A stretch of DNA of 64,000 nt from Sulfurimonas sp. HSL-3221 (lineage in GTDB: Bacteria > Campylobacterota > Campylobacteria > Campylobacterales > Sulfurimonadaceae). The position numbers were made by a program, and so were the translations under genes. Positions 18,195 through 34,187 of this stretch are shown one piece after another. Positions within the stretch are counted from its first letter, which is position 1; the number at the start of each line of letters is the position of its first letter. The stretch is from positions 1,178,001 to 1,242,000 of the forward strand of contig NZ_CP087998.1 in the NCBI RefSeq assembly GCF_021044585.1, in the 5' to 3' direction. Below the pieces are notes generated by a model. That model did no database searches. It was given only the letters and a program-made list of their open reading frames with translations, and was not told where the DNA came from.

Positions 18195-18229
18195 GAAACT
18201 CCTTCTCTCCTCTAGCGAATGGTCATGAA

Positions 18230-18235
18230 ATTATA
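18230..18235 (-). promoter_or_regulatory. -10 box of the pdxJ-pdxA operon
   Basis: TATAAT on the minus strand, about 36 bases before the pdxJ ATG. It lies in the divergent region opposite the guanidine operon. Confidence 0.5.
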
Positions 18236-18343
18236 TCCATATTAACAGATAAAATCGGTAAAAGGGAGCGGGCCGTTTTCGCGTGCTGGGCACAAAAGTT
18301 GTTACTGTTTTTAATAGTGATTATTTTTTAACCACTAAATTCC

Positions 18344-18371
18344 TTGACCTGTTTGATAAAAATGTTATACT
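18344..18371 (+). promoter_or_regulatory. sigma70-type promoter of the guanidine operon
   Basis: TTGACC (18344-18349) and TATACT (18366-18371) are separated by 16 bases, the best two-box promoter in the window. The predicted start near 18378 leaves a leader of about 185 bases before the first gene, which contains the guanidine-I aptamer. Confidence 0.72.
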
Positions 18372-18392
18372 GACACCCAGAAAGCATGTCAC

Positions 18393-18408
18393 GAGGTTGT
18401 TTAACCTC
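18393..18408 (+). promoter_or_regulatory. leader hairpin with sequence repeated after the aptamer
   Basis: GAGGTT-GTTT-AACCTC is a perfect six-pair hairpin at the 5' end of the leader. The same two arms recur at 18513-18518 (GAGGTT) and 18521-18526 (AACCTC) at the 3' edge of the riboswitch. The upstream and downstream arms could therefore exchange partners, a possible expression switch. Confidence 0.5.
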
Positions 18409-18424
18409 ACCACTGTCCACAATA

Positions 18425-18516
18425 GGCGGCTAGGGTTCCGGCGGGTTACCGTGTCTGGTCCGAGAGCCGTCGACCTCTTGAGTAGGGGTTACACGGAGGG
18501 ATAAAAGCCCGGGAGG
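18425..18516 (+). promoter_or_regulatory. guanidine-I riboswitch (ykkC class)
   Basis: Conserved ykkC aptamer segments occur in order: CTAGGGTTCCG (18430-18440), TCTGGTCCGAGAG (18454-18466), ACACGG (18491-18496) and GGGATAAAAGCCCGGGAG (18498-18515). This RNA class binds free guanidinium and switches on guanidine export or degradation genes. The first gene, an ABC substrate-binding protein, starts 49 bases later with GGAG at 18555-18558. No clear intrinsic terminator with a U-run is seen, so the mode of control is undetermined. Confidence 0.93.
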
Positions 18517-18564
18517 TTACAACCTCTTGGCGTGTTTATTCCATTACCTACTCAGGAGATTTAC

Positions 18565-19635
18565 ATGAAATCTATTTTCAAATCTACCTCAAAACTCTTA
18601 GTTGCCGCTACGATGGTCATGGGCCTTGGTGCCTCTTCTCTGATGGCGGAAGTCAAAGATAAGTTTCAGGTCTCCTGGACGATCTATGTCGGATGGATGC
18701 CCTGGGATTACGCCCAGCAAAAAGGGATCATCGACAAGTGGGCCAAAAAATACGGCATCGAGATCGAGATGGTCCAGGTCAACGACTACATCGAATCAAT
18801 CAACCAATATACTGCAGGAAAATTTGACGGCTGTCTGATGACAAACATGGATGCCCTCACGATTCCGGCTGCCGGCGGCGTCGACTCTACAGCGGTCATC
18901 ATGGGTGACTACTCCAACGGGAACGACGGTATCCTCCTTAAAAACAAGAAAAAGCTTTCCGACATCAAAGGCCAGACGGTCAACCTCGTCGAACTCTCTG
19001 TCTCACACTACCTGCTGGCACGTGCGCTTGAAACGGTCGGCCTGAGCGAGAAAGACGTCAAGGTCCTCAACACCTCCGACGCCGATATGGTCGCGGCATG
19101 GGGTACGAAAGACGTCACGGCGATGACAACATGGAACCCGCAGCTCAGCGAGATCATGGCCAACAACAAAGATGCGAACCTTGTCTTCGACTCCAGCAAG
19201 ACGCCGGGCGAGATTATCGATATGCTCGTCATCAACACGGAAACCCTCAAAGACAACCCGAAACTCGCCAAAGCGCTGACCGGTGCATGGTTTGAGACGA
19301 TGGCACTGATGAAAAAGGGCGACGAAGCGGCACTGACTTTTATGGCGCAGGCTTCCGGTACGGACCTCGCGGGCTACAAGAGCCAGCTTGACTCCACGAT
19401 GATGTTCTACGAGCCCTCTGACCTGCTGACGTTTACAACCAGCGACGCCATTCCGGCGACGATGAAAAAAGTCAGCGAATTCTCCTTTGACCACGGCATC
19501 CTCGGCGAAGGTGCTCCTGACGCCGAGTTCATTGGTATGGCGTTCCCGGGCGGCAAAACGTTCGGTGATCCGAAAAACATCAAGCTCCGCTTCGACGACA
19601 CCTATGTCAAAATGGCTGCCGAAGGGAAACTGTAA
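18565..19635 (+). CDS. ABC transporter substrate-binding protein, guanidine/urea-carboxylase-associated type
   Basis: The protein has 356 residues with an N-terminal signal peptide (MKSIFKSTSKLLVAATMVMGLGASSLMA). The mature part is NitT/TauT-like: FQVSWTIYVGWMPWDYAQQKGIIDKWAKKYGIEIEMVQVNDYIESINQYTAGKFDGC, then ALTIPAAGGVDSTAVIMGDYSNGNDGI. This is the periplasmic binding protein family found beside 'urea' carboxylases. Under a guanidine riboswitch the ligand is most likely guanidine or a derivative. GGAG lies 6 bases before the ATG. First gene of the operon. Confidence 0.9.
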   Translation: MKSIFKSTSKLLVAATMVMGLGASSLMAEVKDKFQVSWTIYVGWMPWDYAQQKGIIDKWAKKYGIEIEMVQVNDYIESINQYTAGKFDGCLMTNMDALTIPAAGGVDSTAVIMGDYSNGNDGILLKNKKKLSDIKGQTVNLVELSVSHYLLARALETVGLSEKDVKVLNTSDADMVAAWGTKDVTAMTTWNPQLSEIMANNKDANLVFDSSKTPGEIIDMLVINTETLKDNPKLAKALTGAWFETMALMKKGDEAALTFMAQASGTDLAGYKSQLDSTMMFYEPSDLLTFTTSDAIPATMKKVSEFSFDHGILGEGAPDAEFIGMAFPGGKTFGDPKNIKLRFDDTYVKMAAEGKL

Positions 19636-19644
19636 GGTCCTCTC

Positions 19645-20469
19645 ATGAAACGTTTAATGAACCTCAGACCGTCGAAACAGTCCCTCTTTTTCCTGGGGCT
19701 GCTGCCGTTTGTGCTGATCGTGCTCCTCTACCTGGGGGCGTCGGAAGTCCGCCTGGCGGAAAATCCGAACGACAAACTGCTGCCCTCCATGAGCAGCTTT
19801 GCCGAAGCGATCGACCGCATGGCGTTTGAACCGAGCAAGCGTACCGGCGAATACCTCTTCGTCGAAGATACGGTCGCCTCGCTCGAGCGCCTCGGCCTCG
19901 GTGTGCTCATCAGCGCAGTGCTCGCACTGCTGATGGGGATCCCGCTGGGGTTCATTCCCTTCGTTCGTGCGGGCCTTTCGCCCTTCGTCGCGGCCTTTTC
20001 CATGGTGCCGCCAATGGCTATTTTGCCCATCTTATTCATCATTTTCGGTATGGGTGAGCTGGCTAAAGTAGCACTGATCGTCATCGGGGTGACCCCGCTG
20101 ATCGTCCGCGACCTGCAGCAGCGGGTCATGGAGATCCCGGCGGAGCAGCTGATCAAGGCGCAGACCCTGGGCGGATCGTCCTGGACGATCGTCCTGCGCG
20201 TCGTGCTGCCGCAGATCTTTCCGCGCCTGCTTGATGCGGTGCGCCTCACCATGGGGACGGCGTGGATCTTCCTGATCTCCGCCGAGGCAATTTCGGCCAC
20301 GGAAGGGCTGGGGTACCGGATCTTCTTGGTACGCCGCTACCTGTCGATGGATGTGATCCTGCCGTATGTTGCCTGGATCACCTTCCTCGCCTTTTTGTTT
20401 GATTACCTGCTCAAGCGGTTCACTTACAAGGTGTTCCCGTGGTATGACGCAGGGAAGGAGCAGTCATGA
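19645..20469 (+). CDS. ABC transporter permease (NitT/TauT type)
   Basis: The 274 residues have about six membrane helices and the BPD_transp_1 EAA-type loop (LQQRVMEIPAEQLIKAQTLGGSSWTIVLRVVLPQIFPRLLDAVRLTMGTAWIFLISAEAI). An unusual periplasmic insertion follows helix 1 (residues 35-75). It starts 9 bases after the binding protein and overlaps the ATPase gene by four bases. Confidence 0.92.
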   Translation: MKRLMNLRPSKQSLFFLGLLPFVLIVLLYLGASEVRLAENPNDKLLPSMSSFAEAIDRMAFEPSKRTGEYLFVEDTVASLERLGLGVLISAVLALLMGIPLGFIPFVRAGLSPFVAAFSMVPPMAILPILFIIFGMGELAKVALIVIGVTPLIVRDLQQRVMEIPAEQLIKAQTLGGSSWTIVLRVVLPQIFPRLLDAVRLTMGTAWIFLISAEAISATEGLGYRIFLVRRYLSMDVILPYVAWITFLAFLFDYLLKRFTYKVFPWYDAGKEQS

Positions 20470-21230
20470 GCCTCGTCACCGTTAAAAACCTCTGGAAAGA
20501 GTACGGCGACAACGTCGTGCTGGAAAACCTGAGCCTGAACATCGAGGCGGGCGAATTCTGTACGCTCGTCGGACCGTCGGGTTGCGGGAAAACAACCTTT
20601 CTGAAGATGCTGCTGGGGCAGGAGAACCCGACCCGCGGCACCTTTTTGCTTGACGGGAAGCCTTTCCCGGAAGAGCCGGGCGTCGACCGTGGGATCGTCT
20701 TCCAGCGCTATTCGGTCTTCTCGCACCTGAGTGTGTTGAAAAACGTCATGCTCGGGATCGAGTTTGAAAAGGCTCCGCTCTCAGGTCGCCTTTTCGGCCA
20801 GGCCCGCAGGGCGGCGGAAGCCGAAGCGATGGCGATGCTCGAAGCCGTCGGCCTCGGCGACGCGGCGCACAAGTACCCCAGCGAGCTCTCCGGGGGGATG
20901 CAGCAGCGTCTCTCTATTGCGCAATCCTTGGTGAAAAAGCCGAAGATCCTGCTGCTGGACGAACCCTTCGGGGCCCTCGACCCTGGGATCCGCGCCGATA
21001 TGCACGCGCTGATCCTTGACCTCTGGGAAAAGAACAACCTCACCGTCGTCATGGTCACCCATGACCTCCACGAGGGGTTCTACCTGGGAACGCGGCTGCT
21101 GGTCTTCGACAAGGTCCGTCACGACCCGCACGCACCCAACGCCTACGGGGCGCGCATCACCTACGACATCCCCGTCGGGGATACGCGCGAATCCGTACTT
21201 GAAGAGATCGATAAAACCATCAAGGTTTGA
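20466..21230 (+). CDS. ABC transporter ATP-binding protein (NitT/TauT type)
   Basis: The 254-residue ATPase has Walker A (VGPSGCGKTTF, near 38-48), Q-loop (GIVFQRYSVFSHLSV), signature LSGGMQQRLSIAQSL and Walker B (ILLLDEPFGALDP). With the two preceding genes it completes a guanidine-type importer. The first guanidine-II element begins within 30 bases of its stop. Confidence 0.93.
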   Translation: MSLVTVKNLWKEYGDNVVLENLSLNIEAGEFCTLVGPSGCGKTTFLKMLLGQENPTRGTFLLDGKPFPEEPGVDRGIVFQRYSVFSHLSVLKNVMLGIEFEKAPLSGRLFGQARRAAEAEAMAMLEAVGLGDAAHKYPSELSGGMQQRLSIAQSLVKKPKILLLDEPFGALDPGIRADMHALILDLWEKNNLTVVMVTHDLHEGFYLGTRLLVFDKVRHDPHAPNAYGARITYDIPVGDTRESVLEEIDKTIKV

Positions 21231-21239
21231 TCCAGACCG

Positions 21240-21302
21240 GGAAGAGCAGATCTTCCAGTGCCGCAGGACGACTTGCGGCATCATGACGCGCGGGACGGCC
21301 CG
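21240..21302 (+). promoter_or_regulatory. guanidine-II (mini-ykkC) riboswitch, copy 1
   Basis: Two hairpins with ACGR tetraloops: stem 21259-21267/21272-21280 with loop ACGA (21268-21271), nine pairs including one G-U; and stem 21291-21294/21299-21302 (CGGG/CCCG) with loop ACGG. This pair is the defining feature of guanidine-II RNAs. An extra hairpin, GGAAGA-N5-TCTTCC (21240-21256), precedes them and is kept in copy 2. GAAGGAG at 21311-21317 and the GTG at 21323 follow directly, so control of translation is the likely mode. Confidence 0.87.
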
Positions 21303-21322
21303 AAAACTTTGAAGGAGAAACA

Positions 21323-22060
21323 GTGATTACTGAACACAAAAACCTGAAACCAGAATCCATCATCCTCGACGAGGTGCTCCCGGGCGGTGCACGCTGGTCG
21401 AAGATCATTAAGCGCGGCGACAAGATCCGCATCACGACCAAGGACGGGCTGGGCACCCTCAGCGCGATGTTCTACAACGCCGACAACACCTCGGAGCGTT
21501 TCAACTCCGCCGACACGGTCAAACTTCAGCATAACGCCTACTTCTGCAAAGGGCGGGTCTTCTATTCCGAGCAGGGCCGCGTACTGCTTTCCATTACGGA
21601 AGATACGACTGACGGTCTCTTCGACGCCATCGGCGGCATCAGCAACCCGCGCATCGTCGCGAAAAACTTCGGCGAGGGCGATTTCGAACATATCCGCAAC
21701 CGTTATTACAAAAGCGACCGGGAGAACTTCCTCGTCGAACTGGGCAAATACGGCATGGGAAAACGTGACATGCTTCAGGCGGTCAACTTCTTCAGACGGG
21801 TCGACGTCAAAGAGGGCAATAAGCTGGCGCTTTCCGACAAGCGGCCGCAGCCGCAGAGCTACATCGAACTGCGCGCGGAGATGAATGTCCTGCTGGTGCT
21901 CTCCAACACGCCGCATGTGATGGAAAAGGGAACGTACAACCCGAGCGACGTCCAGCTGACGCTGTTCAAAGCGGCCCCGGTCACCGAAGATGATTACTGC
22001 ATGAACTTCAGTATCCAGTCCCAACGTGCGTTCAAGAACAACGCACGTTACTTTGCCTGA
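21323..22060 (+). CDS. carboxyguanidine deiminase subunit, larger (UAAP / DUF1989 family)
   Basis: The 245-residue member of the 'urea amidolyase-associated protein' family is one of the two subunits (CgdA/CgdB) that convert carboxyguanidine to allophanate and ammonia. It aligns with the next gene product along its length (GTLSAMFYNADNTSERFNSADTV against QAVDTLFYNANDHEERYSANDTI). It lacks the Cys/His metal ligands of that partner (SITEDTTDGLFDAIGGISN in place of TITDDTCGNHDTLGGHCSA), so it is probably the non-catalytic subunit. GTG start with strong GAAGGAG. I have not assigned A or B. Confidence 0.88.
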   Translation: MITEHKNLKPESIILDEVLPGGARWSKIIKRGDKIRITTKDGLGTLSAMFYNADNTSERFNSADTVKLQHNAYFCKGRVFYSEQGRVLLSITEDTTDGLFDAIGGISNPRIVAKNFGEGDFEHIRNRYYKSDRENFLVELGKYGMGKRDMLQAVNFFRRVDVKEGNKLALSDKRPQPQSYIELRAEMNVLLVLSNTPHVMEKGTYNPSDVQLTLFKAAPVTEDDYCMNFSIQSQRAFKNNARYFA

Positions 22061-22070
22061 GGAGCGCGTG

Positions 22071-22691
22071 ATGAAAAGAGATATCGAAACAGCCGTATAC
22101 AACCACAAACTGCCGGCCGGCGTGCCATGGAGCTATGTCGTGAAAAAAGGCCAGACGCTGCGTATCGTCGACCTTGAAGGGTGCCAGGCCGTCGACACGC
22201 TCTTTTACAATGCCAATGATCACGAAGAGCGCTACTCGGCCAACGATACGATCCGCGAACAGGGGAGTATCTTCGTCACGACGGGCACACAGCTGATCTC
22301 CACCGACGACAACGTCATGATGACGATCACCGACGATACCTGCGGCAACCACGACACCCTGGGCGGGCACTGCAGCGCGGAGAGCAACACCGTACGCTAC
22401 GGCCACGATACAAAGTACATGCACAGCTGCCGCGACAACTATCTGTTCGAGATCGGCGAGCGTGAGATGGACCCGCGGGACCTCACGAACAACATCAACT
22501 TCTTCATGAACGTGCCGATCGAGGAGAACGGTTTCCTGATCATCGTCGACGGTATCTCCAAGCCGGGCGACTATGTCGACATGAAAGCCGAGATGGACAC
22601 GCTGGTGCTGATCTCGAACTGTCCGCAGCTCAACAACCCGTGCAACGCGTTCAACCCGTCGCCGATCCAGCTGGTCATCTGGGACGACTAA
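22071..22691 (+). CDS. carboxyguanidine deiminase subunit, smaller, metal-binding (UAAP / DUF1989 family)
   Basis: The 206-residue product starts at MKRDIETAVYNHKLPAG after GAGGAG; the longer frame from 22026 overlaps the previous gene. Candidate metal ligands are Cys91, His94, His100, Cys101 and Cys120 (DDTCGNHDTLGGHC and HSCRDNY). Known partner enzymes hydrolyse carboxyguanidine to allophanate. With the preceding subunit it forms the deiminase step between carboxylase and allophanate hydrolase. Confidence 0.9.
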   Translation: MKRDIETAVYNHKLPAGVPWSYVVKKGQTLRIVDLEGCQAVDTLFYNANDHEERYSANDTIREQGSIFVTTGTQLISTDDNVMMTITDDTCGNHDTLGGHCSAESNTVRYGHDTKYMHSCRDNYLFEIGEREMDPRDLTNNINFFMNVPIEENGFLIIVDGISKPGDYVDMKAEMDTLVLISNCPQLNNPCNAFNPSPIQLVIWDD

Positions 22692-22695
22692 GACG

Positions 22696-23709
22696 ATGAA
22701 AAAGGCGACACGGCTTCTGCGCTTCGAAGATGCATGGCTGCCGAACCTGGCGGCATGGGCCTATATGCTGGGGGCCTACGTGGGCGGATTCGCCGCCATC
22801 CTGGCCGACGCCTTGTGGCTGAATGCGGCGGGGGTACTCCTGCTGGCACACGGTATGGTCATCGCCGCCTATTTCATCCACGAGTGCGCCCACGATTCGC
22901 TCTTCAGGCTGCCGATCAACAACCACCGTTTCGGAGAGCTTCTGCTCTGGATCTGCGGCGCGTCGTACAGCGATTACGAGGCGATACGGATGAAGCATGT
23001 CCGCCACCACTTGGACCGTGCCGATATCGTTTCGTTCGATTTCCGCACCCGCCTGCCGCACTATCCGAAACTGCTCAAGACGATCCAGGTACTGGAGTGG
23101 TTCTACATTCCCGCCCTCGAGATCATGATGCACGCCCTGGTCGTCATTCTGCCGTTCATGAAGGAGAGCCGCCGCTATCTGCGCCGCCGCGTCGTCACGG
23201 TACTGGTACTGCGCATCGCTTTCTTTGCCGCACTGGCGTCGATTGCGCCGAAGGTGCTGCTGCTTTACCCGCTGGCGTACATGATCTTCCTGACGGTCAT
23301 GCGTTTCATGGATGTGCACCAGCACACCTACGATGTGCATGAAACCCTGGATTTTTCGCGCGAAGCGCAAGTGAAACAGTATGACCGCGCCTTCGAATCG
23401 CGCAATACCTATTCGAACCTGATCTCTGAGAAATACCCGTGGCTGAACCTGCTGGTCCTCAATTTCGCGTACCACAACGTTCACCATGATCAGCAGATCC
23501 AGCCGTGGTACCGGCTGCCGGGACTGCACGCCAAGCTCTACGGCGAAGACAGGACGCAGGTCCTGGTGTTCTCCGACCTGGCGCGCAGTTACCACCGCTA
23601 CCGTGTCGGCCGGGTCCTCAACGGAGACCCGGCCGACCTTGACGTCAAGCGTGACGGGGGCCGCACCTTTATCGGTGTGGACGGCGTCTCGTTCCTGACG
23701 GCGCACTGA
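22696..23709 (+). CDS. membrane di-iron fatty-acid-desaturase-fold enzyme of unknown substrate
   Basis: The 337 residues have two early membrane helices (about 17-58), further hydrophobic segments near 137-155 and 168-203, and the histidine boxes of the desaturase/hydroxylase superfamily: H62-ECA-H66, H101-VR-HH105, H208-Q-H210 and H260-NV-HH264. The fold uses two irons and O2 to desaturate or hydroxylate. It starts 4 bases after the deiminase subunit and is followed after 11 bases by the MBL gene, so it is firmly inside the guanidine operon. The guanidine pathway as known needs no oxygenase. N-dealkylation of an alkylguanidine is one possible role (inference). Confidence 0.88.
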   Translation: MKKATRLLRFEDAWLPNLAAWAYMLGAYVGGFAAILADALWLNAAGVLLLAHGMVIAAYFIHECAHDSLFRLPINNHRFGELLLWICGASYSDYEAIRMKHVRHHLDRADIVSFDFRTRLPHYPKLLKTIQVLEWFYIPALEIMMHALVVILPFMKESRRYLRRRVVTVLVLRIAFFAALASIAPKVLLLYPLAYMIFLTVMRFMDVHQHTYDVHETLDFSREAQVKQYDRAFESRNTYSNLISEKYPWLNLLVLNFAYHNVHHDQQIQPWYRLPGLHAKLYGEDRTQVLVFSDLARSYHRYRVGRVLNGDPADLDVKRDGGRTFIGVDGVSFLTAH

Positions 23710-23720
23710 AGGAGTCCAAC

Positions 23721-24503
23721 ATGACACAGGTAAAGAAGTTCTGGCCCATCCTGACGGGAACCCACCGTTACGAGAAGACGCTCTCAACCCGCAACCACGG
23801 CTCAGGGGTGATCATCGACGCCCCGATCCTCGCCTACCTGATCGAGACGTCCAACGGCCGCATCCTTTACGATGTGGGATGCGACTACACGAAGATCGCC
23901 GACCCGGTTCTACGCAAGCAGTTCTACGAGCATGAAGGCTTCCCCTTCGGTCCGCCGCAGATGACCGAGGAGCAGCGCCTGCCCAACCGCCTGGCGGAGC
24001 TGGGACTGCAGAAAGAGGATATCGACGTCGTCTTCTGCGGGCACTTGCATTTCGATCACGCCGGCGGGGTCTGCGAATTCTGCGGTGCGGAAGTGCACGT
24101 GCATGAAAAAGAGCTTGAGGCGGCGCGTGAACCGGCGGACGAAGCCTACTTCAAAGAGGACTTCGACTGTCCGGTGAACTGGCGCGTTTACAAGGGCGAA
24201 TACGACCTCGTCCCCGGCGTCCGCGCCATCGAGACGCCGGGCCATACGGCCGGCCACATGTCAATGATGATCGAGCTGCCCAAGGGCTCCCCGATCCTCC
24301 TTGCCGGCGACGCGGCGGACCTGCGGGAGAACCTGGAGCGGGAGATCGCGCCGGGGCTCTGCTACCGCGACGACGAAACGCAGGCGCTGGAGAGCATCCG
24401 CAAGCTCAAACGGCTCGCCCTTGAAACGGGCGCGGATCTGTGGCCCAACCACGACATGGCCTTTTTCGAGAGCAAGAACCGCTTTCCGAAATTTTTCGAA
24501 TAA
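23721..24503 (+). CDS. MBL-fold metallohydrolase (AHL-lactonase-like)
   Basis: The 260-residue metallo-beta-lactamase-fold hydrolase has a complete dinuclear zinc set: H108-x-H110-x-D112-H113 (HLHFDHAGG), H175 (TPGHTAGH), D197 (LAGDAAD) and H244 (WPNHDM). The overall arrangement resembles N-acyl-homoserine lactonases, but the substrate is not predictable. AAGGAG precedes the ATG. It is the last gene before the second guanidine-II element and is not part of the known guanidine route. Confidence 0.88.
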
Positions 24504-24508
24504 CGCCG

Positions 24509-24571
24509 GGAAGAGCGTTTCTTCCAGTGCCTCGGGACGGCCTGCGGCATTCAGACGACCGGGACGGCCCG
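24509..24571 (+). promoter_or_regulatory. guanidine-II (mini-ykkC) riboswitch, copy 2
   Basis: The same arrangement as copy 1: accessory hairpin GGAAGA-N5-TCTTCC (24509-24525); stem 24528-24536/24541-24549 with loop ACGG (one mismatch and one G-U pair); and stem 24560-24563/24568-24571 (CGGG/CCCG) with loop ACGG. The linker between the two ACGR hairpins is 10 bases, as in copy 1. AAGGA at 24587-24591 and the carboxylase ATG at 24599 follow. It begins 6 bases after the MBL stop. Confidence 0.85.
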
Positions 24572-24598
24572 AAAAGTACTATTTTTAAGGACCTGAAA

Positions 24599-27500
24599 AT
24601 GTTTAGCAAAGTTTTGATCGCCAACCGCGGAGAGATCGCCTGCCGCGTCATCCGTACGCTCAAGAAGATGGGCATAGGCTCCGTCGCCGTCTATACCGGC
24701 GCCGATACCGACTCCCTGCATGTCAGCCTCGCCGACGAAGCCTACTATATCGGCCACGGTGTGGCTTCCGAAAGCTATCTCGACGCGGCAAAGATCCTTG
24801 ATATTGCAAAACAGAGCGGTGCCGAAGCGGTGCACCCGGGCTACGGCTTCCTGAGCGAAAATGCGGCCTTTGCCAGCGCCTGCGAGGCGGCCGGGATCGC
24901 CTTTATCGGTCCGCGTACGGAGCACATGGAGAAGTTCGGCCTCAAGCACACGGCCCGCGCCCTGGCCGAGGCGAACAACGTTCCCCTCCTGCCGGGCTCC
25001 TCACTGCTGTCCGACCTTGACGAAGCGAAAAGCGAAGCGGCGCGCATCGGCTACCCGGTAATGCTCAAAAGTACCGCCGGCGGCGGCGGGATCGGGATGC
25101 AGCTCTGTTTCGATGAAGCGCAGCTGCTTAGTGCCTACGACTCCGTCAAGCGCCTCAGTGAAAACAACTTCTCTGACGGCGGGATGTTCCTGGAAAAATA
25201 CGTCGCACATGCACGCCACATCGAAGTACAGGTCTTCGGCGACGGCGAGGGCTTTGTGGCAACTTTAGGTGACCGTGACTGTTCCGTACAGCGCCGTAAC
25301 CAGAAGGTGATCGAGGAGACCCCGGCTCCCGGGATTTCCGATGAGACGCGCGAAGCGCTCTACACAGCCGCCAGAGACCTGACGGCCTCCGTCGCCTACC
25401 GCTCCGCCGGGACGGTCGAGTTCGTCTACGATACGGACAGCGGCGCATTCTATTTCCTCGAAGTCAATACCCGCCTGCAGGTCGAACACGGCATTACCGA
25501 AGAGGTGACCGGCGTCGACCTCGTCGAGTGGATGATCCGCACGGCCGCCGGCGAGAACCCGGCGCTGTACGACTACGTCCATGCCCCGCAGGGACACGCC
25601 ATCCAGGTGCGCGTCTATGCCGAAGACCCGATGAAGAACTTCCAGCCCAGCTCAGGGGTCCTGACGAACGTCGCCTTCGCAGAAGGGATCCGCTGCGACA
25701 CCTTCATTGAGACGGGCCTCGAAGTCTCCTCCTTCTACGACCCGATGATCGCCAAGCTTATCGTCAAGGGCAGTGACCGCAGTGATGCGCTTGCCAAGAT
25801 CGGCACGGCCATTGCAGAGACACGCATCGACGGGATCGAGACGAACCTCCGCTACCTCGGCGCCATCGTCGCTTCCGATGTTTTTGAACAGGGCAAACAG
25901 ACGACGAAGTACCTTGACGGCTTCAGCTTTACGCCAAACAGTATCGACGTGCTGCGCCCGGGAACACAGACGACGATCCAGGACTACCCGGGCCGCAGCG
26001 GCTACTGGGATATCGGCGTTCCGCCTTCCGGCCCCTTCGACGGTTTCAGCTTCCGCTACGCCAACCGTCTTGTCGGCAACAGCGAAGCGGCGGCGGGCCT
26101 CGAGATTGCCATCGCCGGGCCGACGCTGCGCTTCAATACCGACAGCGTCGTCGCGCTCTGCGGCGCGCAGATCGACGCCTCTATCGACAACGAGCCGGTG
26201 GGCATGAACGAAGCGCTCACGGTCAAGGCCGGCAGCGTGCTCAAACTGAAAAAAGTCCATAACGAAGGCTTCCGTACCTACCTGGCCGTGCGCGGCGGGT
26301 TCGACGTACCCGAGTACCTCGGCAGCCGCTCGACCTTTACCCTTGGGCAGTTCGGCGGCCACGCGGGGCGCACCCTCGTTCCCGGCGATGTGCTGCACAT
26401 CGACACGATGACGGAGAGCGACGCCGCAACCGCACCGGCTACGCCGCGCCACGGATATGAGAACCGCTGGGAGATCGGCGTGCTCTACGGACCGCATGGC
26501 GCCCCGGATTTCTTCACCGACGACGATATCGAAACCTTCTTTGCGACGGAGTGGGAGATCCACTACAACTCCAACCGCACCGGCGTGCGCCTGATCGGCC
26601 CCAAACCGCAGTGGGCACGTACGGACGGCGGCGAAGCGGGGCTGCACCCCTCCAATATCCACGACAATGCCTACGCCATCGGTGCCGTCGACTTCACCGG
26701 CGACATGCCGGTCATCCTCGGCCCCGACGGTCCGAGCCTCGGCGGTTTCGTCTGCCCGGTGACGATCGTAAGCGCCGAGCTGTGGAAGATGGGCCAGCTT
26801 CGGGCGGGCGACAAGGTGAAGTTCGTCCCGGTGGAACACGACACGGCGATGGAAATGCTGGGAGCGCAGGAGGAGGCGATCGCATCGCTCTCCACCTACG
26901 ATGAGCGCGCTTTCCTTGCACCGAAACCGATCGGATCGCCGATCCTCTTCGCCGACGAGGCGAAGGGCGACCTTCCGGCCATGGTTATCCGCCAGTCCGG
27001 CGACGCGAACCTGCTCGTCGAATACGGGGAGATGCAGCTCGACATCGAACTGCGCTTCCGCGCCCATGTGCTGATGGAGGCGATGAAAGAGGAGTCCTTC
27101 GAGGGCGTCACGGACATCACTCCGGGCATCCGCTCGCTGCAAGTCCATTTCGACCCGAAAGTCTGTGACCGGGCTGCACTGATTGAACGCCTCAAGGAGA
27201 TTGAACTGACCCTGCCGTCCATCGACGACATCGAGGTGCCGGCGCGCGTCGTACACCTGCCGCTCTCCTGGGACGACGAGTCGACCCGCGTCGCCATCGA
27301 CAAGTACATGAAGACGGTCCGCCCCGATGCGCCATGGTGTCCTTCGAATATCGAATTCATCCGCCGCATCAACGGCCTGGACTCTATCGACGAGGTCAAG
27401 AAGATCGTCTTCGGCGCCAACTACCTTGTCATGGGCCTTGGCGACGTCTATCTGGGTGCACCCGTCGCGACGCCGCTCGACCCGCGCCACCGCCTTGTCA

Positions 27501-28201
27501 CGACCAAGTACAACCCGGCGCGTACCTGGACCCCGGAGAACGCTGTCGGTATCGGCGGGGCATACATGTGTGTCTACGGGATGGAAGGTCCCGGCGGCTA
27601 CCAGTTCGTCGGTAGGACGGTGCAGATGTGGAACCGCCACCGCCAGACGGCGGATTTCAAAGAGGGCAAGCCGTGGCTGCTGCGCTTCTTCGACCAGATC
27701 AAGTTCTACGAGGTGAGCGCCGAGGAGCTACACAAAATGCGCGAGGATTTCCCCCGCGGCCGCATGAAGCTCGAAGTCGAAGAGACGACCTTCAGCCTCA
27801 AGGCATATAAAGAATTCCTCTCCGAGAACAAGGAGAGCATCAAAGCCTTTAAAACGACGCAGCAGGCCGCCTTCGATGAAGAACGCGCCATGTGGGAACG
27901 CACGGGGCTGGCGAACTTCACCAGCGAGAGCGGCGAAGTGAAAGCGGAGACGATGGAGGTGATCGAGCTGGGCGAACACGACGAAGCGGTTGAATCCCCG
28001 GTTCAGGGAAGCCTCTGGAAGGTGATGGCGAAACTCGGCGACACGGTCGAGGAGGGCGAAGTGCTCGCCATCGCCGAATCGATGAAGATGGAAGTCGACA
28101 TCGAAGCCCCCGAAGCGGGCAAGATCGTCAAGGTGCTCTGCCACGAGGGTGAGAGCGTGCACGCGGGCAAGATGCTCTTTGTTATCGAACCGCAGGAGTA
28201 G
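24599..28201 (+). CDS. biotin-dependent guanidine carboxylase (urea carboxylase family)
   Basis: The 1200-residue enzyme starts at [18 protein letters not shown] after AAGGA; the frame is open upstream to 24440 but that part overlaps the riboswitch and MBL gene. Domains in order: biotin carboxylase (1-450; ATP-grasp [19 protein letters not shown]...[13 protein letters not shown]), KipA/AHS2-like (about 455-760; [27 protein letters not shown]), KipI/AHS1-like (about 775-1060; ends [27 protein letters not shown]), and biotinyl domain (1120-1200; ESMKMEV, biotinyl Lys near 1163). It carboxylates guanidine or urea with bicarbonate and ATP. Guanidine is preferred here because of the three guanidine riboswitches and both deiminase subunits. 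Confidence 0.93.
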
Positions 28202-28209
28202 GATTGATT

Positions 28210-29061
28210 ATGGAACTGCAGCGATATAAAACCATGTGGGGCTTTGAGGGGGATTTCGAGAGCGCCTGTGCCGAAGCCCTTGCGGCGGGGTTCGACGGGA
28301 TCGAAGGGCCGGCGCCCGAATCTTCCTCCCAGCGTGCCTACTGGAAATCGTGTCTTGAAAAGTACGGCCTTCACTACATCGCCGAGGCGGTGACCGGGGG
28401 CGATTACGTCCCGCGGCGCGATCTCGGTGTCGAAGGGCACCTGGACGACCTCAATGCGATCCTTGCACGCAGTGCGGAACTCTCCCCGCGTTTTGTCACC
28501 TGCATCGGCGGACTGGACGCCTGGAGCGAGGCGGAGAGCCTGCGCTTTTTCAAAGAGGGGATGAAACTGGCGGAGCGCTACGGCCTGCAGATTAGTTTCG
28601 AGACCCACCGCAGCCGAAGCCTCTTTAACCCCTGGGTGACGCGCCGGATCGTCGATGCACTGCCGGAGATCTCGTTGACGGCCGACATCAGCCACTGGTG
28701 CGTCGTCTGCGAACGGCAGATGGACAGTGAACGAGAGACGATCGATGCGATCGCGCCGAACGTGAAACATATCCATGCCCGCGTCGGTTACGACCAGGGG
28801 CCGCAGGTCCCGCACCCGGCGGCACCGGAGTACGCTTATGCCCTGGAGGCGCACCAGGCGGCCTGGGAACGTTTCTGGGAGGCGCAGTACCACCGCGGAT
28901 TCGCGATTTCGACGATGACGCCGGAGTTCGGCCCCGACGGTTATCTGCACACGCTCCCCTTTACCCAGGCCCCGGTGGCCGATCTGTGGGAACTTAACCA
29001 GTGGATGGGCGAAACGGAACGGCTCCATTTTCAGCGCCATATGGCAAAGGCGGCGGCATGA
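28210..29061 (+). CDS. sugar-phosphate isomerase/epimerase-like TIM barrel
   Basis: The protein has 283 residues from MELQRYKTMWGFEGDFESAC; AGGA lies 6 bases before this ATG, which is preferred over the TTG at 28204. It belongs to the xylose-isomerase-like (AP endonuclease 2) barrel superfamily with metal residues intact: ISFETHRSR (Glu), LTADISHWCV (Asp/His), VKHIHARVGYDQG (His) and MTPEFGPDGY (Glu). The reaction is unknown. It begins 8 bases after the carboxylase and overlaps the transporter gene by four bases, so it is an integral operon member with no known guanidine role. Confidence 0.85.
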   Translation: MELQRYKTMWGFEGDFESACAEALAAGFDGIEGPAPESSSQRAYWKSCLEKYGLHYIAEAVTGGDYVPRRDLGVEGHLDDLNAILARSAELSPRFVTCIGGLDAWSEAESLRFFKEGMKLAERYGLQISFETHRSRSLFNPWVTRRIVDALPEISLTADISHWCVVCERQMDSERETIDAIAPNVKHIHARVGYDQGPQVPHPAAPEYAYALEAHQAAWERFWEAQYHRGFAISTMTPEFGPDGYLHTLPFTQAPVADLWELNQWMGETERLHFQRHMAKAAA

Positions 29062-29942
29062 GATCGCACCTTCCCGTCGTCGTACTGCTCGGCGCGTCGG
29101 TCCTTTGGGGGCTTACCTGGCTGCCGCTTAAACAGATCAACGGCATGGGTATTGACGGTATCGCGCTGACGATGGGTGCCTACGGCATCCTCGCCCTCCT
29201 GCTGACCCCGGTGCTCATGGCGCAGTTTTCACAATGGCGCGAACACAAGCGGGCCATGGGCATGATCCTGCTTTTCGGCGGGGGTGCGAATCTTGCGTTT
29301 ACCTATGCCCTGATCAACGGCGAGGTGATCCGTGTGATGGTACTTTTCTACCTGCTGCCCGTCTGGGGCGTGCTCGGCGGGAAGTTCTTCCTGCGCGAAG
29401 GCGTCGACCTCTGGCGCTGGCTCGGTGCCGCCCTGGCGGTCACGGGTGCCTTCGTCATTCTCGGCGGGTTCGACGCCCTCGGCGGCGCACCGTCATGGAT
29501 CGACCTGATCGCGCTGCTCTCGGGCCTGCTCTTTGCGATGAATAACCTTGTCTTCCGCGCGGCGGCAGCGGTCCCGGTCGCTTCGAAGATCACGGTGATG
29601 TTCTACGGCTGCCTGATCCTGGCCGGCGCGCTGCTCGGCCTGGGCGTAGAACAGCTCCCCTATGACCTGGCTCCCGAAGCGTGGCTTGCCCTTGCGGCAT
29701 ACGCGGTGCTGTGGCTGCTGTTGGCCAATATCGGTTCACAGTGGGGCGTGACGCATATGGAAGCGGGGCGCTCCTCCATCATTATTATCATGGAGCTGAT
29801 CACCGCCGTCATCTCCGCAACGCTGATCGCGGGAGAGCGGATGGACGCCATGGAAATGATCGGCGGCGTGCTGATACTCGCGGCGGCGCTGATCGAAGCG
29901 CTGCGTACCAAAGAAGACGATCTCCCCGAGACGACGATATAA
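29058..29942 (+). CDS. EamA/DMT-family transporter
   Basis: The 294 residues have about ten membrane helices in two EamA repeats (LLGASVLWGLTWLPLKQ...; LIALLSGLLFAMNNLVFRAAA...; second repeat ending EAGRSSIIIIMELITAVISATLIAGERMDAMEMIGGVLILAAALI). The ATG overlaps the TIM-barrel stop. The substrate is unknown. Guanidine exporters under ykkC control are usually SMR (Gdx) proteins, of the same superfamily but half the size, so an efflux or metabolite-exchange role is conceivable. Confidence 0.88.
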   Translation: MRSHLPVVVLLGASVLWGLTWLPLKQINGMGIDGIALTMGAYGILALLLTPVLMAQFSQWREHKRAMGMILLFGGGANLAFTYALINGEVIRVMVLFYLLPVWGVLGGKFFLREGVDLWRWLGAALAVTGAFVILGGFDALGGAPSWIDLIALLSGLLFAMNNLVFRAAAAVPVASKITVMFYGCLILAGALLGLGVEQLPYDLAPEAWLALAAYAVLWLLLANIGSQWGVTHMEAGRSSIIIIMELITAVISATLIAGERMDAMEMIGGVLILAAALIEALRTKEDDLPETTI

Positions 29943-29956
29943 AAAGGATATAGATT

Positions 29957-31291
29957 ATGACGATATCACAACTTTTGAACGATTATAAAAACGGGACAAC
30001 AACCCCGCGCGACGTCATGGCGCAGATCCGTGCACGGATCGAGGCGAATGCGGAAAACCCTATCTTTATCCATGCGCTGAACGAGGCGGAGATTGAGCCC
30101 TATCTTGAACGTCTCGAAGGGATGGACCCCGATGCCCTGCCGCTCTACGGCATCCCTTTCGCGATCAAGGACAATATCGACCTCGCCGGCATCCCGACGA
30201 CGGCCGCTTGTCCGGCATTCAGTTACGTCCCGGAAGCCTCGGCCTTCGTCGTCGCTCAGCTGATCGAAGCGGGGGCGATTCCCGTCGGCAAGACGAACCT
30301 CGACCAGTTCGCGACGGGGCTCGTCGGGACGCGTTCGCCCTACGGCGCCTGCCGCAACAGCATCGACCCCGCTTACATCTCCGGCGGTTCCAGTTCGGGG
30401 AGCGCCATCAGCGTCGCTCTGGAGATGGCGGCCTTCTCCCTGGGGACCGACACGGCGGGATCGGGTCGCGTCCCGGCGGCCTTTAACAACCTTGTGGGCG
30501 TCAAGCCCTCCAAGGGGGTGCTGAGCACCTCCGGTGTCGTACCGGCGTGCCGAAGCCTTGACTGCGTTTCCATCTTTGCCGTCAACACCGAGGACGCCAA
30601 AGCGGTCTTTGACATCGCATGCGCCTTTGACGCCGCGGACCCCTATAGCCGCAAGATGCCGCAGTCAGCGGGTGCAGCGGAAAAAACGATGCGCTTTGCC
30701 GTGCCGCTCCCTTCCCAGCTGAAGTTCTTTGGAGACAGCGAGGCGGAGGCGCTCTTCAACGCGGCGGTAGCCCGCTTCGAATCCATGGGGTATACGGCGG
30801 TCGAAACGGATTTCTCGCCGATGCTCGACGCGGCGAACCTGCTCTATTCGGGCCCCTGGGTCGCCGAGCGTTATATCGCGACGAAACAGATTATGGACGA
30901 AACGCCTGAGCAGGTACTGGACGTGACGCGTTCTATCATTGAGCAGGGACGTGACAAGAGCGCGGAGGAGTACTTCAATGCCGAATACCGTCTCAAAGCC
31001 TACAAGCGCCACTCCGAAGAGATACTCGAGGGGACGGATTTCGCCCTGACCCCGACGACGGGGACCATCTACACCATCGAGGCGATCAACGCCGACCCGG
31101 TGCAGCTGAATACGAACCTCGGCTACTACACCAATTTTATGAACCTGCTTGACTTCGCCGCCTACGCGGTACCGGCCGGGTTCCGCCCCAACGGGCTCCC
31201 CTTCGGCGTCACGCTCTTCGGCGACGCCTTTGACGACCGCCGTCTGATGGACGTCGGCGAAGCTTTTGTTGCGGAGGCGCCCCGTGGCTGA
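29957..31291 (+). CDS. atzF: allophanate hydrolase, amidase domain
   Basis: The 444-residue amidase-signature enzyme has catalytic Lys71 (GIPFAIKDNIDLAG), the serine loop ISGGSSSGSA (142-150) and nucleophile Ser169 in TDTAGSGRVPAAF. It hydrolyses allophanate to ammonia and CO2, the last pathway step. It stops short of the usual C-terminal domain of AtzF proteins of about 600 residues; that domain is encoded separately by the next gene, which overlaps it by eight bases in another frame. Confidence 0.92.
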   Translation: MTISQLLNDYKNGTTTPRDVMAQIRARIEANAENPIFIHALNEAEIEPYLERLEGMDPDALPLYGIPFAIKDNIDLAGIPTTAACPAFSYVPEASAFVVAQLIEAGAIPVGKTNLDQFATGLVGTRSPYGACRNSIDPAYISGGSSSGSAISVALEMAAFSLGTDTAGSGRVPAAFNNLVGVKPSKGVLSTSGVVPACRSLDCVSIFAVNTEDAKAVFDIACAFDAADPYSRKMPQSAGAAEKTMRFAVPLPSQLKFFGDSEAEALFNAAVARFESMGYTAVETDFSPMLDAANLLYSGPWVAERYIATKQIMDETPEQVLDVTRSIIEQGRDKSAEEYFNAEYRLKAYKRHSEEILEGTDFALTPTTGTIYTIEAINADPVQLNTNLGYYTNFMNLLDFAAYAVPAGFRPNGLPFGVTLFGDAFDDRRLMDVGEAFVAEAPRG

Positions 31292-31682
31292 GACGATCGA
31301 GATCGCCGTCTGCGGCGCGCACATGCGCGGTCTGCCGCTCAACCACCAGTTGACGGAGCTGGACGCAACCTTTGTGGCGGCGACAAGCACGGCAAAAGGG
31401 TACCGCCTCTTTGATGTGCCGGAGAAAGTACCGCCGCGTCCGGGGATGGTCCGCGACAGTGATGCGCAGAGCAGCGTCACCCTTGAGGTGTGGTCGATGC
31501 CGCTGGAGCATTTCGGCGCGTTTATGGTCCAGATCGCGTCGCCGCTCTGTATCGGCACCGTGCAGCTCGAAGACGGCAGCGCCGTTTACGGCTTCTTGTG
31601 CGAGGCCGATGCGCTCAAGGGTGCCGAAGAGATCACTGCCTTCGGCGGCTGGCGGGAGTACCTCGCCTCAAAGCCGCGCTGA
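31284..31682 (+). CDS. allophanate hydrolase C-terminal domain, stand-alone
   Basis: The 132-residue product (GTG start; GGAGG about 8 bases upstream) matches the C-terminal domain of allophanate hydrolase: IEIAVCGAHMRGLPLNHQLTELDATFVAATSTAKGYRLFDV...KPGM-like...VWSMPLEHFGAFMVQIASPLCIGTVQLEDGSAVYGFLCE. That domain decarboxylates the intermediate N-carboxycarbamate in known enzymes. The split may be natural, since start and ribosome-binding site look real, or a frameshift in a fused gene. It is the last gene of the operon. Confidence 0.88.
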   Translation: MAETIEIAVCGAHMRGLPLNHQLTELDATFVAATSTAKGYRLFDVPEKVPPRPGMVRDSDAQSSVTLEVWSMPLEHFGAFMVQIASPLCIGTVQLEDGSAVYGFLCEADALKGAEEITAFGGWREYLASKPR

Positions 31683-31854
31683 GCGTCTTTTCAGCAGAAA
31701 ATAAAACCAACTTTTTGGAGGTGGAAAATATGCGATGAATAGAATTTGTCCTATATATGATTAAAAAATAAACAATACGGCGGTTTAAAAATGTTAGACC
31801 GTTGGTAAAGTACTAAAGACATAAAGCAAGTCTATCTACCGATAAGGAAACATA

Positions 31855-33069
31855 ATGAAAATGACAAAAATGAGTTTGATGGCGGCACTGCTCCTGGGAA
31901 GCAGCGCTTTTGCATTTGAAAATACAGAAGTCGGCGGTGACGCCCGTTTCTTCTACTCTACATTTGACGGTCACGGTGCCGACCTTTTCGGCAAAGCGAG
32001 CAGCACGGCCGATTTCGGTGCACGCCTGAGCATTACAACGGATATCGATGAGATCCTCTCCGCCGGTGTGACAGGTTACGCTGTCAGTACGCTTGGCCTT
32101 GACAAAGAGATTGCCAATAACGTATGGTCTGGTGCGCATCTTGACACTGCGACAGGTGACTTCTATACGACGACCGGTTGGATCGGCGAGGCATGGCTCT
32201 CCGCAAAACTGGGTAACACCGTTGTCAAAGGTGGCCGTATGGAACTCGACACGCCGCTGCTCTTTACGGAAACGTGGGGCATTACAGCAAACAACTTTGA
32301 AGCGGCGACGGTTACCAATACGGATATCCCGGGTACAACGCTTGTCGGTGCATGGGTTGCAACCGGAAATGGCTACTCCCAGTTCCTGCTGACAGACACG
32401 AAGGGTAACTTCTCTACCATCGGCGACCAGGGTGCGATCGCTGTCGGTGCCATCAACAACTCTTTCGAACCGCTGACGGCACAGGCGTGGTACTATGAAC
32501 TGCCGGATACGGCGACGGCCTACTGGCTCGAAGCAGACCTCGCCATCGCAGGTGTAGTCGCTGGGCTCCAGTACACGGACATCAACCCTAACGAACTCAT
32601 CTCTGCAGCGGACGACTCCACGGCGTTTGCGGCAAAACTGGGTTACGAAGGGATTGAGAACCTTGGTATCTACGCTTCCTACTCCACAACGGATAAGGAC
32701 GGTGATCAGTACATCGGTAATATCGCAACCACACCGGGCGAAGGCTGGGGTATGCAGTCCAAGCTCTACACTGAAGCATGGTGGAACTTCGGTTATGTCG
32801 GCCTGCCGGGTACGGATGCCTACAACGTCACGGCGACCTACAGCATTCCCGAAATGGCTGACCTCGGACTCTTCTACACCAACATCGACACAGATGGTGG
32901 CTTTGGTCCGGCTTATTTCAAAAACACGGTGAGCGAAGTAACCTTTACGGCTGCCAAATCATTCGGCAAGCTTGATGCGCTGTTCGCATACATCTATGCG
33001 GATGACGACGCCATTAACAACGGCGACGCTTACAACACGCTGCAACTCTACCTCGTCTACAACTTCTAA
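31855..33069 (+). CDS. outer-membrane porin-like beta-barrel protein
   Basis: The protein has 404 residues with signal peptide (MKMTKMSLMAALLLGSSAFAF) and a mature chain of alternating amphipathic strands ending in the aromatic outer-membrane signature ...LQLYLVYNF. It resembles the Campylobacterota porins loosely related to OprD. The ribosome-binding site AAGGAA is good. The preceding 170-base gap is AT-rich and holds its promoter, although no clear -10 stands out. Codon use is highly biased as in an abundant protein. It is not necessarily part of the guanidine operon. Confidence 0.8.
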   Translation: MKMTKMSLMAALLLGSSAFAFENTEVGGDARFFYSTFDGHGADLFGKASSTADFGARLSITTDIDEILSAGVTGYAVSTLGLDKEIANNVWSGAHLDTATGDFYTTTGWIGEAWLSAKLGNTVVKGGRMELDTPLLFTETWGITANNFEAATVTNTDIPGTTLVGAWVATGNGYSQFLLTDTKGNFSTIGDQGAIAVGAINNSFEPLTAQAWYYELPDTATAYWLEADLAIAGVVAGLQYTDINPNELISAADDSTAFAAKLGYEGIENLGIYASYSTTDKDGDQYIGNIATTPGEGWGMQSKLYTEAWWNFGYVGLPGTDAYNVTATYSIPEMADLGLFYTNIDTDGGFGPAYFKNTVSEVTFTAAKSFGKLDALFAYIYADDDAINNGDAYNTLQLYLVYNF

Positions 33070-33114
33070 TCGAAGCCGTAGATGCGCGCCGGCGCGCGGC
33101 ACACTACCTTTTGT

Positions 33115-33141
33115 CCGGGAGCCTTCATTCTCCTCTCCCGG
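33115..33141 (+). terminator. terminator-like hairpin after the porin
   Basis: CCGGGAG (33115-33121) pairs with CTCCCGG (33135-33141), followed by CGCC and two short T-runs. A second GC-rich palindrome (GCGCGCCGGCGCGC) lies about 30 bases earlier. Confidence 0.55.
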
Positions 33142-33162
33142 GCGCCTTTTCACACCCCTTTT

Positions 33163-33972
33163 TCAAGACCATAGAAACATCGCCGAAGAGACGCCGAGGA
33201 TCTCCGCCTCGAAAACGCTGTCGCAGGCACGCCCCGTCGCACCGTAGCAGACATGCAGCGGCAGCAGGTGTTCCGCTCTGGGGTGGCAGTACCTGGCGTA
33301 GGGGGCATGCTCCCAGTTGATCAGCCGTTCGCTGCGTTCGCTTTCGATCAATGCTTTGTCCGAACAGGTCTTGATGAGCCAGTGCTTGAAGGCGTCGTTT
33401 TTATCCGTACGCTCTCGGGAGGGTGTAAAGAAGGCTTTCATATTGTGAAAAGAGAAGCCCGAGCCGACCACGAGGATGTTGTCGTGCGACAGCGATGCCA
33501 GCGCCTCGCCCATGCGCAGATGCGCGACCGGGTCCAGGCCCTTGACGAGCGAGAGCTGTATGCAGGGGATGTCCGCATCGGGATACATGATCTTGAGGGG
33601 GACGAACAGCCCGTGGTCGAAGCCGCGGTCGTCGTCCAGGATCGATTCGATCCCGTGTTGTTGGAGGCTCCAGTGCAGCTCATCCGCCAGGGCCGGCATC
33701 CCGAGGGCGGGGTAGGTGATGTCATAGGCTGCGTCGGGGAAGCCGTAGTAGTCGTAGATGAGTTCCGGTGTGCTGCCGTGGGTGATCGTCGGGGTGATCG
33801 TTTCCCAATGGGCGCTGACGACAATGATGGCCGAGGGTTTAGTGATCATCGAGGCGATCCGCTGCAGGGTGATGACCATTTCGTCGTGGCCCCTGTCTCC
33901 CAGCAGCGGCATCGGGCCGCCGCCGTGGGAGAGGTAGAGGACACGCATATGCTTGGAGTCTTTCAGGGCCAT
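33163..33972 (-). CDS. class III extradiol dioxygenase, 4,5-DOPA dioxygenase-like (YgiD family)
   Basis: The 269-residue LigB-superfamily protein has YLSHGGGPMPLLGD near the N-terminus (metal His), IIVVSAHWET, DDDRGFDHGLFVPLKIMYPDADIPCIQLSL and the catalytic VVGSGFSFHNMK segment. Family members open catechol rings with Fe(II) or Zn(II). AAGGAG precedes the ATG at 33972. The true substrate is unknown. Convergent with the porin. Confidence 0.87.
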   Translation of the reverse strand: MALKDSKHMRVLYLSHGGGPMPLLGDRGHDEMVITLQRIASMITKPSAIIVVSAHWETITPTITHGSTPELIYDYYGFPDAAYDITYPALGMPALADELHWSLQQHGIESILDDDRGFDHGLFVPLKIMYPDADIPCIQLSLVKGLDPVAHLRMGEALASLSHDNILVVGSGFSFHNMKAFFTPSRERTDKNDAFKHWLIKTCSDKALIESERSERLINWEHAPYARYCHPRAEHLLPLHVCYGATGRACDSVFEAEILGVSSAMFLWS

Positions 33973-34187
33973 TTTGCGCTCCTTTTCATCCCGTTCGGTG
34001 ATGCTGTTGGTGATTTCATTATAACGCGGAGGAGGGTGCGCCAGTTTAATCGGGCGGACTAGCGCGGAGCGTTCAGTCGCCGTTTAACACCTCAGGCGCA
34101 TAATGAAGCATTATCGTGCAAAAAGGAGAGTGACGCATACACCGTATCGGAATGCGCGGCAGAAACAGGCAGCCGCAAGGAGGCCGC

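Follow-up and report, generated by a model that had tools for sequence, protein, structure and literature searches.

A predicted 5' pseudoknot attached to an internal guanidine-II riboswitch in the guanidine operon of Sulfurimonas sp. HSL-3221

Background

Guanidine-II riboswitches (mini-ykkC, RF01068) are usually described as little beyond two hairpins, P1 and P2, which carry ACGR loops and lie near the Shine-Dalgarno (SD) sequence, before genes of guanidine metabolism. According to excerpts of PMC9094411 and PMC5486947, they are taken to raise translation through P1 and P2 loops joined by guanidinium, with an anti-SD in the P1-P2 linker in E. coli. Methylguanidine is accepted by guanidine-II and not by guanidine-I (excerpt of PMC12508155).

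Operons with a guanidine-I leader and a guanidine-II riboswitch before the carboxylase have been published for Raoultella, Erwinia, Klebsiella and Vreelandella, and UAAP1/UAAP2 is known in the same literature as the carboxyguanidine deiminase CgdAB (excerpts of PMC12186494 and PMC12508155). The operon of Sulfurimonas sp. HSL-3221 resembles those of Vreelandella boliviensis and Raoultella/Klebsiella in having guanidine-I at its start and guanidine-II before the carboxylase. It differs from them, as far as those excerpts describe them, in an extra guanidine-II element before UAAP1/cgdA, in desaturase and MBL genes, and in a pseudoknot. A single guanidine-II element before a carboxylase is therefore already known; what appears to be new here is the 5' pseudoknot and the second guanidine-II element. 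Excerpts of a review of tandem riboswitches (PMC9481103) record no guanidine-II in tandem with other classes. The two guanidine-II copies described below, about 3.2 kb apart and each before its own gene, fall outside the definition of a tandem riboswitch. Full-text literature searches, whose coverage stopped short of the original guanidine-II paper, found neither a pseudoknot before guanidine-II nor two guanidine-II elements in one carboxylase operon, which is no proof of absence.

The intercistronic pseudoknots of plasmid IncI/IncB repZ-repY are tied to leader-peptide termination and lie near the upstream stop codon, as does the pseudoknot of the pre-carboxylase copy (copy 2). The plasmid pseudoknot adjoins the SD of the next gene, whereas that of copy 2 adjoins the aptamer, some 75-95 nt before the start codon. 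The guanidine-III riboswitch (RF01763) has no match in the window, and its covariance model gave none up to E 5 in 18200-34000. Guanidine-III, as described in excerpts of PMC5696562, likewise places an H-type pseudoknot in a guanidine-related leader. The copy 2 pseudoknot differs in its 3+6 bp, its very short loops and its lack of a visible binding pocket.

Results

The window, i.e. the whole stretch of 64,000 nt analysed here, contains a guanidine operon at 18419-31291 on the + strand of a 2.5 Mb single-contig genome. The operon carries three guanidine switches of two classes. Its leader is a guanidine-I riboswitch (18419-18517; RF00442, 89.3 bits against a cut-off of 63), followed by an ABC importer consisting of a substrate-binding protein (TIGR03427), permease and ATPase (18532-21230, by NCBIfam). 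Guanidine-II copy 1 (21258-21302; RF01068 match at 21260-21302), with P1 loop ACGA at 21268-21271 and P2 loop ACGG at 21295-21298, precedes UAAP1 and UAAP2 (21323-22691; profile matches to TIGR03425/TIGR03424). Next come an FA_desaturase-type protein (22696-23709; PF00487) and a lactonase-like MBL protein (23721-24503; PF00753) whose stop codon is at 24501-24503. Copy 2 lies between this stop codon and the carboxylase (24599-28201; TIGR02712, 1932.7 bits), whose SD, AAGGA, is at 24587-24591. A xylose-isomerase-like TIM barrel and an EamA transporter (28204-29942) separate the carboxylase from the allophanate hydrolase (29957-31291; PRK08186/TIGR02713, above cut-off); the presence of these two genes in that gap is a feature of this clade. 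Judging from gene spacing, the whole operon is probably a single transcript.

The genes downstream of copy 2, carboxylase and allophanate hydrolase, are guanidine-related. Asp698 of the carboxylase aligns with Asn737 of the yeast urea enzyme 3va7, which corresponds by alignment offset to 1330 in 5i8i, and we take this place to be the position that decides between guanidine and urea. Asp marks guanidine carboxylases and Asn urea carboxylases (excerpt of PMC12186494); by this rule Asp698 agrees with a guanidine enzyme and not with a urea enzyme. In one relative (G257; L195 12974-16572) the carboxylase is split into two overlapping ORFs, as if by a frameshift or sequencing error.

Copy 2 has the anatomy of a guanidine-II riboswitch, comprising P1 (24526-24551, loop ACGG at 24537-24540, with a mismatch U24532-C24545), a linker (24552-24559) and P2 (24560-24571, loop ACGG at 24564-24567); the RF01068 match covers 24529-24571. 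A first-pass annotation of the sequence had described copy 2 at 24509-24571 with two ACGG loops and one mismatch in the first stem, all of which holds; its start, 24509, is the first base of a GGAAGA stem upstream of the riboswitch proper. P1 of copy 2 is about 11 bp, against 8 in the RF01068 model, and the model is without a 5' pseudoknot. Copy 2 scores 29.0 bits, below the Rfam gathering score of 32, which is a curation threshold and not an anatomical feature; copy 1 passes it with 35.4. The E-value of copy 2 is 0.019 in one scan and 7.1e-4 across the genome, where it ranks second among RF01068 matches. The third-best match (21.5 bits) is inside a long open frame and was rejected. A match to the CRISPR repeat RF01336 over copy 1 (25 bits, cut-off 45) was taken as chance. 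Orthologues of copy 2 in L040, L041, L042 and L181 exceed the RF01068 cut-off; at this site G301 scores 36.1 bits, and G191 and G377 score 35.3 each.

The space between the MBL stop codon and P1 is filled by 24504-24525, for which covariation and template tests support an H-type pseudoknot. Its helices are ordered S1a (CGC, 24504-24506), S2a (GGAAGA, 24509-24514), S1b (GCG, 24515-24517) and S2b (TCTTCC, 24520-24525), with L1 at 24507-24508 and L3 at 24518-24519, so that S1 has 3 bp and S2 has 6 bp. S1 arises where bases upstream of the S2 stem pair with the S2 loop, as CGC...GCG in the window and elsewhere as GGC...GCC (L043), GGU...ACC (L044, L215, L216) or AGC...GCU (L057, L214). Among 18 non-redundant sites that match a lax template, L1 is mostly 2 (14 sites), with 1 or 3 at the remaining four, and L2 is 0 at 16. 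Both copies have GGAAGA-N5-UCUUCC directly 5' of P1; copy 1 carries the P0 hairpin (GGAAGA-GCAGA-TCTTCC, 21240-21256) without an S1 partner by the template, and the pre-carboxylase copy of G301 has the S2 hairpin only.

Covariation was measured in a plain MAFFT alignment (A2) of 35 of 43 sites, including sites that do not fit the template; eight near-copies were omitted (L039 both sites, L041 UAAP1, L051, L053, L058, L209, L211), of which L053 retains P0 with changed sequence. Two-sided changes are present in each of the three S1 and six S2 pairs. The covariation of S1 is 0.396, compared with 0.199 in shuffles (0 of 500 reach 0.396) and at most 0.123 when slid; that of S2 is 0.590, compared with 0.282 and at most 0.285. 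Paired cells make up 69% of S1 and 85% of S2. RNAalifold, uninformed of S2, predicts 5 bp of it. By these comparisons 24504-24525 appears to be a conserved 5' structural extension of guanidine-II that is frequent in related bacteria.

Two-helix templates, designed after the first sites had been seen, were either lax (at most one G-U) or strict (all Watson-Crick). The lax template fits 25 of 37 pre-carboxylase sites and the strict one 19 of 37. Among the 28 non-redundant sites, which are related rather than independent lineages, the lax template fits 18 against 2.16 expected and the strict one 13 against 0.28 expected from dinucleotide shuffles; since shuffle P values ignore relatedness, they overstate independence. 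After collapse at 50% identity the strict template still fits 7 of 17 (0.15 expected). The pseudoknot idea was formed before L208-L217 were fetched, and the strict template fits five of the six later-fetched non-redundant sites, the exception being L213. The strict template was found in none of 12 exporter-linked sites, 11 proteobacterial sites, six pre-UAAP1 sites or 278 further gene ends in the same set of loci. The pseudoknot is missing, by the lax template too, in 12 of the 37 pre-carboxylase sites, including G301, and the S1 of the lax fit in L186 (UUA/UAA) is likely chance.

The exporter-linked control comprises 12 of the 14 f9 sites, L152 and L153 being omitted as near-copies of L151; here the lax template fits 5 of 10 non-redundant sites against 2.16 expected, which counts against the lax template in AT-rich sequence. 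In this family (L141-L167) guanidine-II stands before SMR-type exporter genes, named by eye from the frame start, and right after a TATAAT-like box. As the box closely precedes guanidine-II, the f9 RNA may begin near P1.

A flank-swap test scored 14 of 22, compared with a mean of 5.35 (P 5e-5); L048, L049, L216 and L217 were scored as misses because the S2 hairpin was mis-picked there. A plain hairpin test on P0 was weak (18 of 24 against 9.9 expected; L040, L041, L181 and L214 were missed by the stem rule), so the case rests on covariation and the two-helix template.

Placement relative to the upstream stop codon is generally tight. Where S1 could be fitted (24 sites), it begins 0 (10 sites), 1 (5 sites), 9-14 (7 sites) or 82-88 nt (2 sites) after the stop, and in the window S1 starts at the base directly after the MBL stop codon. 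The two distant cases, L041 and L181, have a longer, inverted-repeat-like spacer between the MBL stop and S1, pieces resembling which are found before the carboxylase in L054 and L191. The P1 loop lies only 19-26 nt past the stop in L047, L050-L053, L055, L185 and L186, leaving scant room for a pseudoknot, and the strict template fits none of these. At 16 of 20 measured sites no base separates S2 from P1 (with overlaps of up to 3 nt), and at the other four S2 is 2-3 nt off. S1, S2 and P1 would then form a stacked rod, since S2 abuts P1.

Forty-seven loci were examined (the window, L039-L058, L077, L181-L195 and L208-L217; L077 and L211 are probably the same genome). Guanidine-II is present before the carboxylase in 37 and absent there in ten (L054, L187-L193, L210, L212). 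Before UAAP1/cgdA it is present in six of the 47, all of one clade (G000, G269, G191, G377, G426 and G301), the first four being of one genus. Among 398 genomes of the order, a draw outside which G426 falls, 31 have an RF01068 match at E <=0.002, and five of these have two (G000, G269, G191, G377, G301). Of 20 named loci (L059-L078), 12 have a guanidine-II-like motif nearby: ten before the carboxylase (including L077, Aliarcobacter), L064 before UAAP1 and L078 before a desaturase. Rfam adds a pre-carboxylase guanidine-II in L078. With 37 and 6 occurrences among the 47 loci, respectively, sequence comparison points to an old pre-carboxylase site and to copy 1 as the newcomer.

Copies 1 and 2 align locally with 54 identities over 66 nt. 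Their score of 42 compares with a best of 19 among 5000 shuffles and of 15 for the rest of the window, sampled at every 7th 68-mer. The likeness begins upstream of the riboswitch, in GGAAGA...UCUUCC (24509-24514/24520-24525, and 21240-21245/21251-21256 in copy 1), an additional hairpin outside the Rfam model. Within the clade (G000, G269, G301) the sites are 74-84% alike; the next nearest pre-carboxylase elements, from other genera, are at 60-67%. A common origin of the two copies is thereby supported. The first-pass annotation had read a resemblance over about 65 bases, now confirmed by this alignment, as an intra-operon duplication under structural selection. The guanidine-II anatomy and the common origin stand; the direction is reversed, the pre-carboxylase site being old. 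Relatives without the element at one of the two sites, which that annotation had counted against its reading, do exist, 41 of the 47 loci having no pre-UAAP1 element; they date copy 1 and leave copy 2 intact. Evidence for structural selection is thin between the copies alone and strong across relatives, where covariation is seen. Three P1 pairs differ between the copies: two still pair through a one-sided change (A-U to G-U, G-U to G-C), and the third is broken (G-C to U-C).

Window copy 1 resembles the first copies of G301 and G426 at 84-86% and window copy 2 at 81%; window copy 2 and copy 2 of G301 are 74% alike. Rather than copy 2 having simply been duplicated into copy 1, copy 1 sequence may have overwritten that of window copy 2. 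Block recombination also seems to have acted: G191, G377 and G426 carry another allele of copy 2, at 63-67% to window copy 2, and with it a different MBL gene. The MBL gene before copy 2 in G191 and G377 is 77% to that of the window and closer to that of G426 (82%); the other operon genes of G191 and G377 are mostly 90-95% to those of the window, with the TIM barrel at 83-85%. This suggests that the MBL gene and the riboswitch moved together as a single block. In G301 (L042), which belongs to another family, the operon carboxylase is 92% identical to that of the window, above most family-mates, and a transfer is likely.

Discussion

We favour, with moderate confidence, reading 24504-24571 as a guanidine-II riboswitch internal to the carboxylase operon and built of a pseudoknot, P1 and P2. 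This reading draws on P1 and P2 with their ACGR loops, on covariation in S1 and S2, on how narrowly the pseudoknot is distributed and on the site being the older of the two. As for other guanidine-II RNAs, guanidinium would join the P1 and P2 loops, and this contact would raise translation of the carboxylase. S1, S2 and P1 would stack as one rod, which would most likely prevent P1 from pairing with the preceding coding RNA and keep it in register. With P1 kept apart from coding RNA, the switch could fold in isolation within a long mRNA; the pseudoknot would thus isolate and anchor the switch inside the operon. Copy 1, which would have lost S1 or never had it, would be a later duplicate that puts CgdAB, the desaturase and the MBL protein under the same control. 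Guanidine-II accepts methylguanidine, so copy 1 could widen the response of these genes.

The position of S1, 0-1 nt from the upstream stop in 15 of 24 fitted sites, also suggests a ribosome-gated composite riboswitch, in which a terminating ribosome melts the pseudoknot, its refolding times or resets P1, and the carboxylase requires both guanidine and a state of upstream translation. We consider this unlikely, if worth keeping in view; were it true, one of the smallest known riboswitches would have a third input domain. Somewhat less probable still is that the UCUUCC-like S2b acts as an anti-SD, pairing the SD without ligand and S2a with ligand, P0 then being the expression platform. At most sites S2a is indeed purine-rich and SD-like and S2b pyrimidine-rich, the top SD partner in L041 is the 3' arm of P0, and the P1-P2 linkers at these sites show no evident anti-SD, in contrast to the scheme for E. 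coli given in excerpts of PMC9094411. Yet SD partners are scattered in partition functions, and no partner common to the sites emerged from the free-energy ensembles of 42 of 43 sites (L047 has no SD by the rule used). The P0 stems of L052 (GCGC/GCGC) and L053 (GUGC/GCAC) are without SD complementarity, S2b of L181 (ACCCCA) mismatches its SD, unlike that of L040, and a local 6-bp helix should beat a long-range one of 4-5 bp. Covariation alone cannot separate a pseudoknot from a bistable switch in which S1 and S2 are mutually exclusive hairpins, and when isolated segments are folded to minimum free energy, three of them (L043, L056, L215) take the S1 hairpin and the remaining eight the S2 hairpin. 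The shortness of S1, at 3 bp, also weighs against the pseudoknot. S1 and S2 share no bases, however, so nothing forces mutual exclusion, and the prevailing loop lengths (L2 of 0 in 16 and L1 of 2 in 14 of 18) suit coaxial stacking; this bistable arrangement is, if anything, a shade harder to credit than the anti-SD.

That copy 2 is a plain guanidine-II riboswitch, its 5' hairpin a neutral spacer and S1 chance, would suit the 12 of 37 sites without a pseudoknot and copy 1 with its hairpin only. It is very improbable given the excess of strict fits over expectation (13 of 28 against 0.28), the five of six later sites, the empty 278 control gene ends, and two-sided changes in every S1 and S2 pair. 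Least probable of all is that copy 2 is decaying after copy 1 assumed its role, as its P1 mismatch and its RF01068 score below cut-off might hint. The copies precede different genes, the site is kept in 37 of 47 loci, the loops, P2 and pseudoknot are intact, and the core in G269 is 100% identical.

The presence, within a single bacterial order, of a covarying pseudoknot abutting P1 suggests that a minimal aptamer can gain parts inside an operon, near translating ribosomes. Copy 2 could serve as a test case for the shielding of internal riboswitches from preceding genes, and the operon offers an apparent within-operon riboswitch duplication whose parent and daughter sites are both datable.

The desaturase, which has His boxes, and the MBL protein both lie inside the guanidine operon. 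By analogy with the methylguanidine hydroxylase described in excerpts of PMC12508155, they may oxidise N-alkylguanidines. The desaturase is present in all six loci that have guanidine-II before UAAP1, and occurs without a pre-UAAP1 riboswitch in G701, G697 and G468. In Oxalobacteraceae CAVE-383 (L078 16699-17774) a desaturase homologue, at 39%, has a guanidine-II element of its own (39.5 bits).
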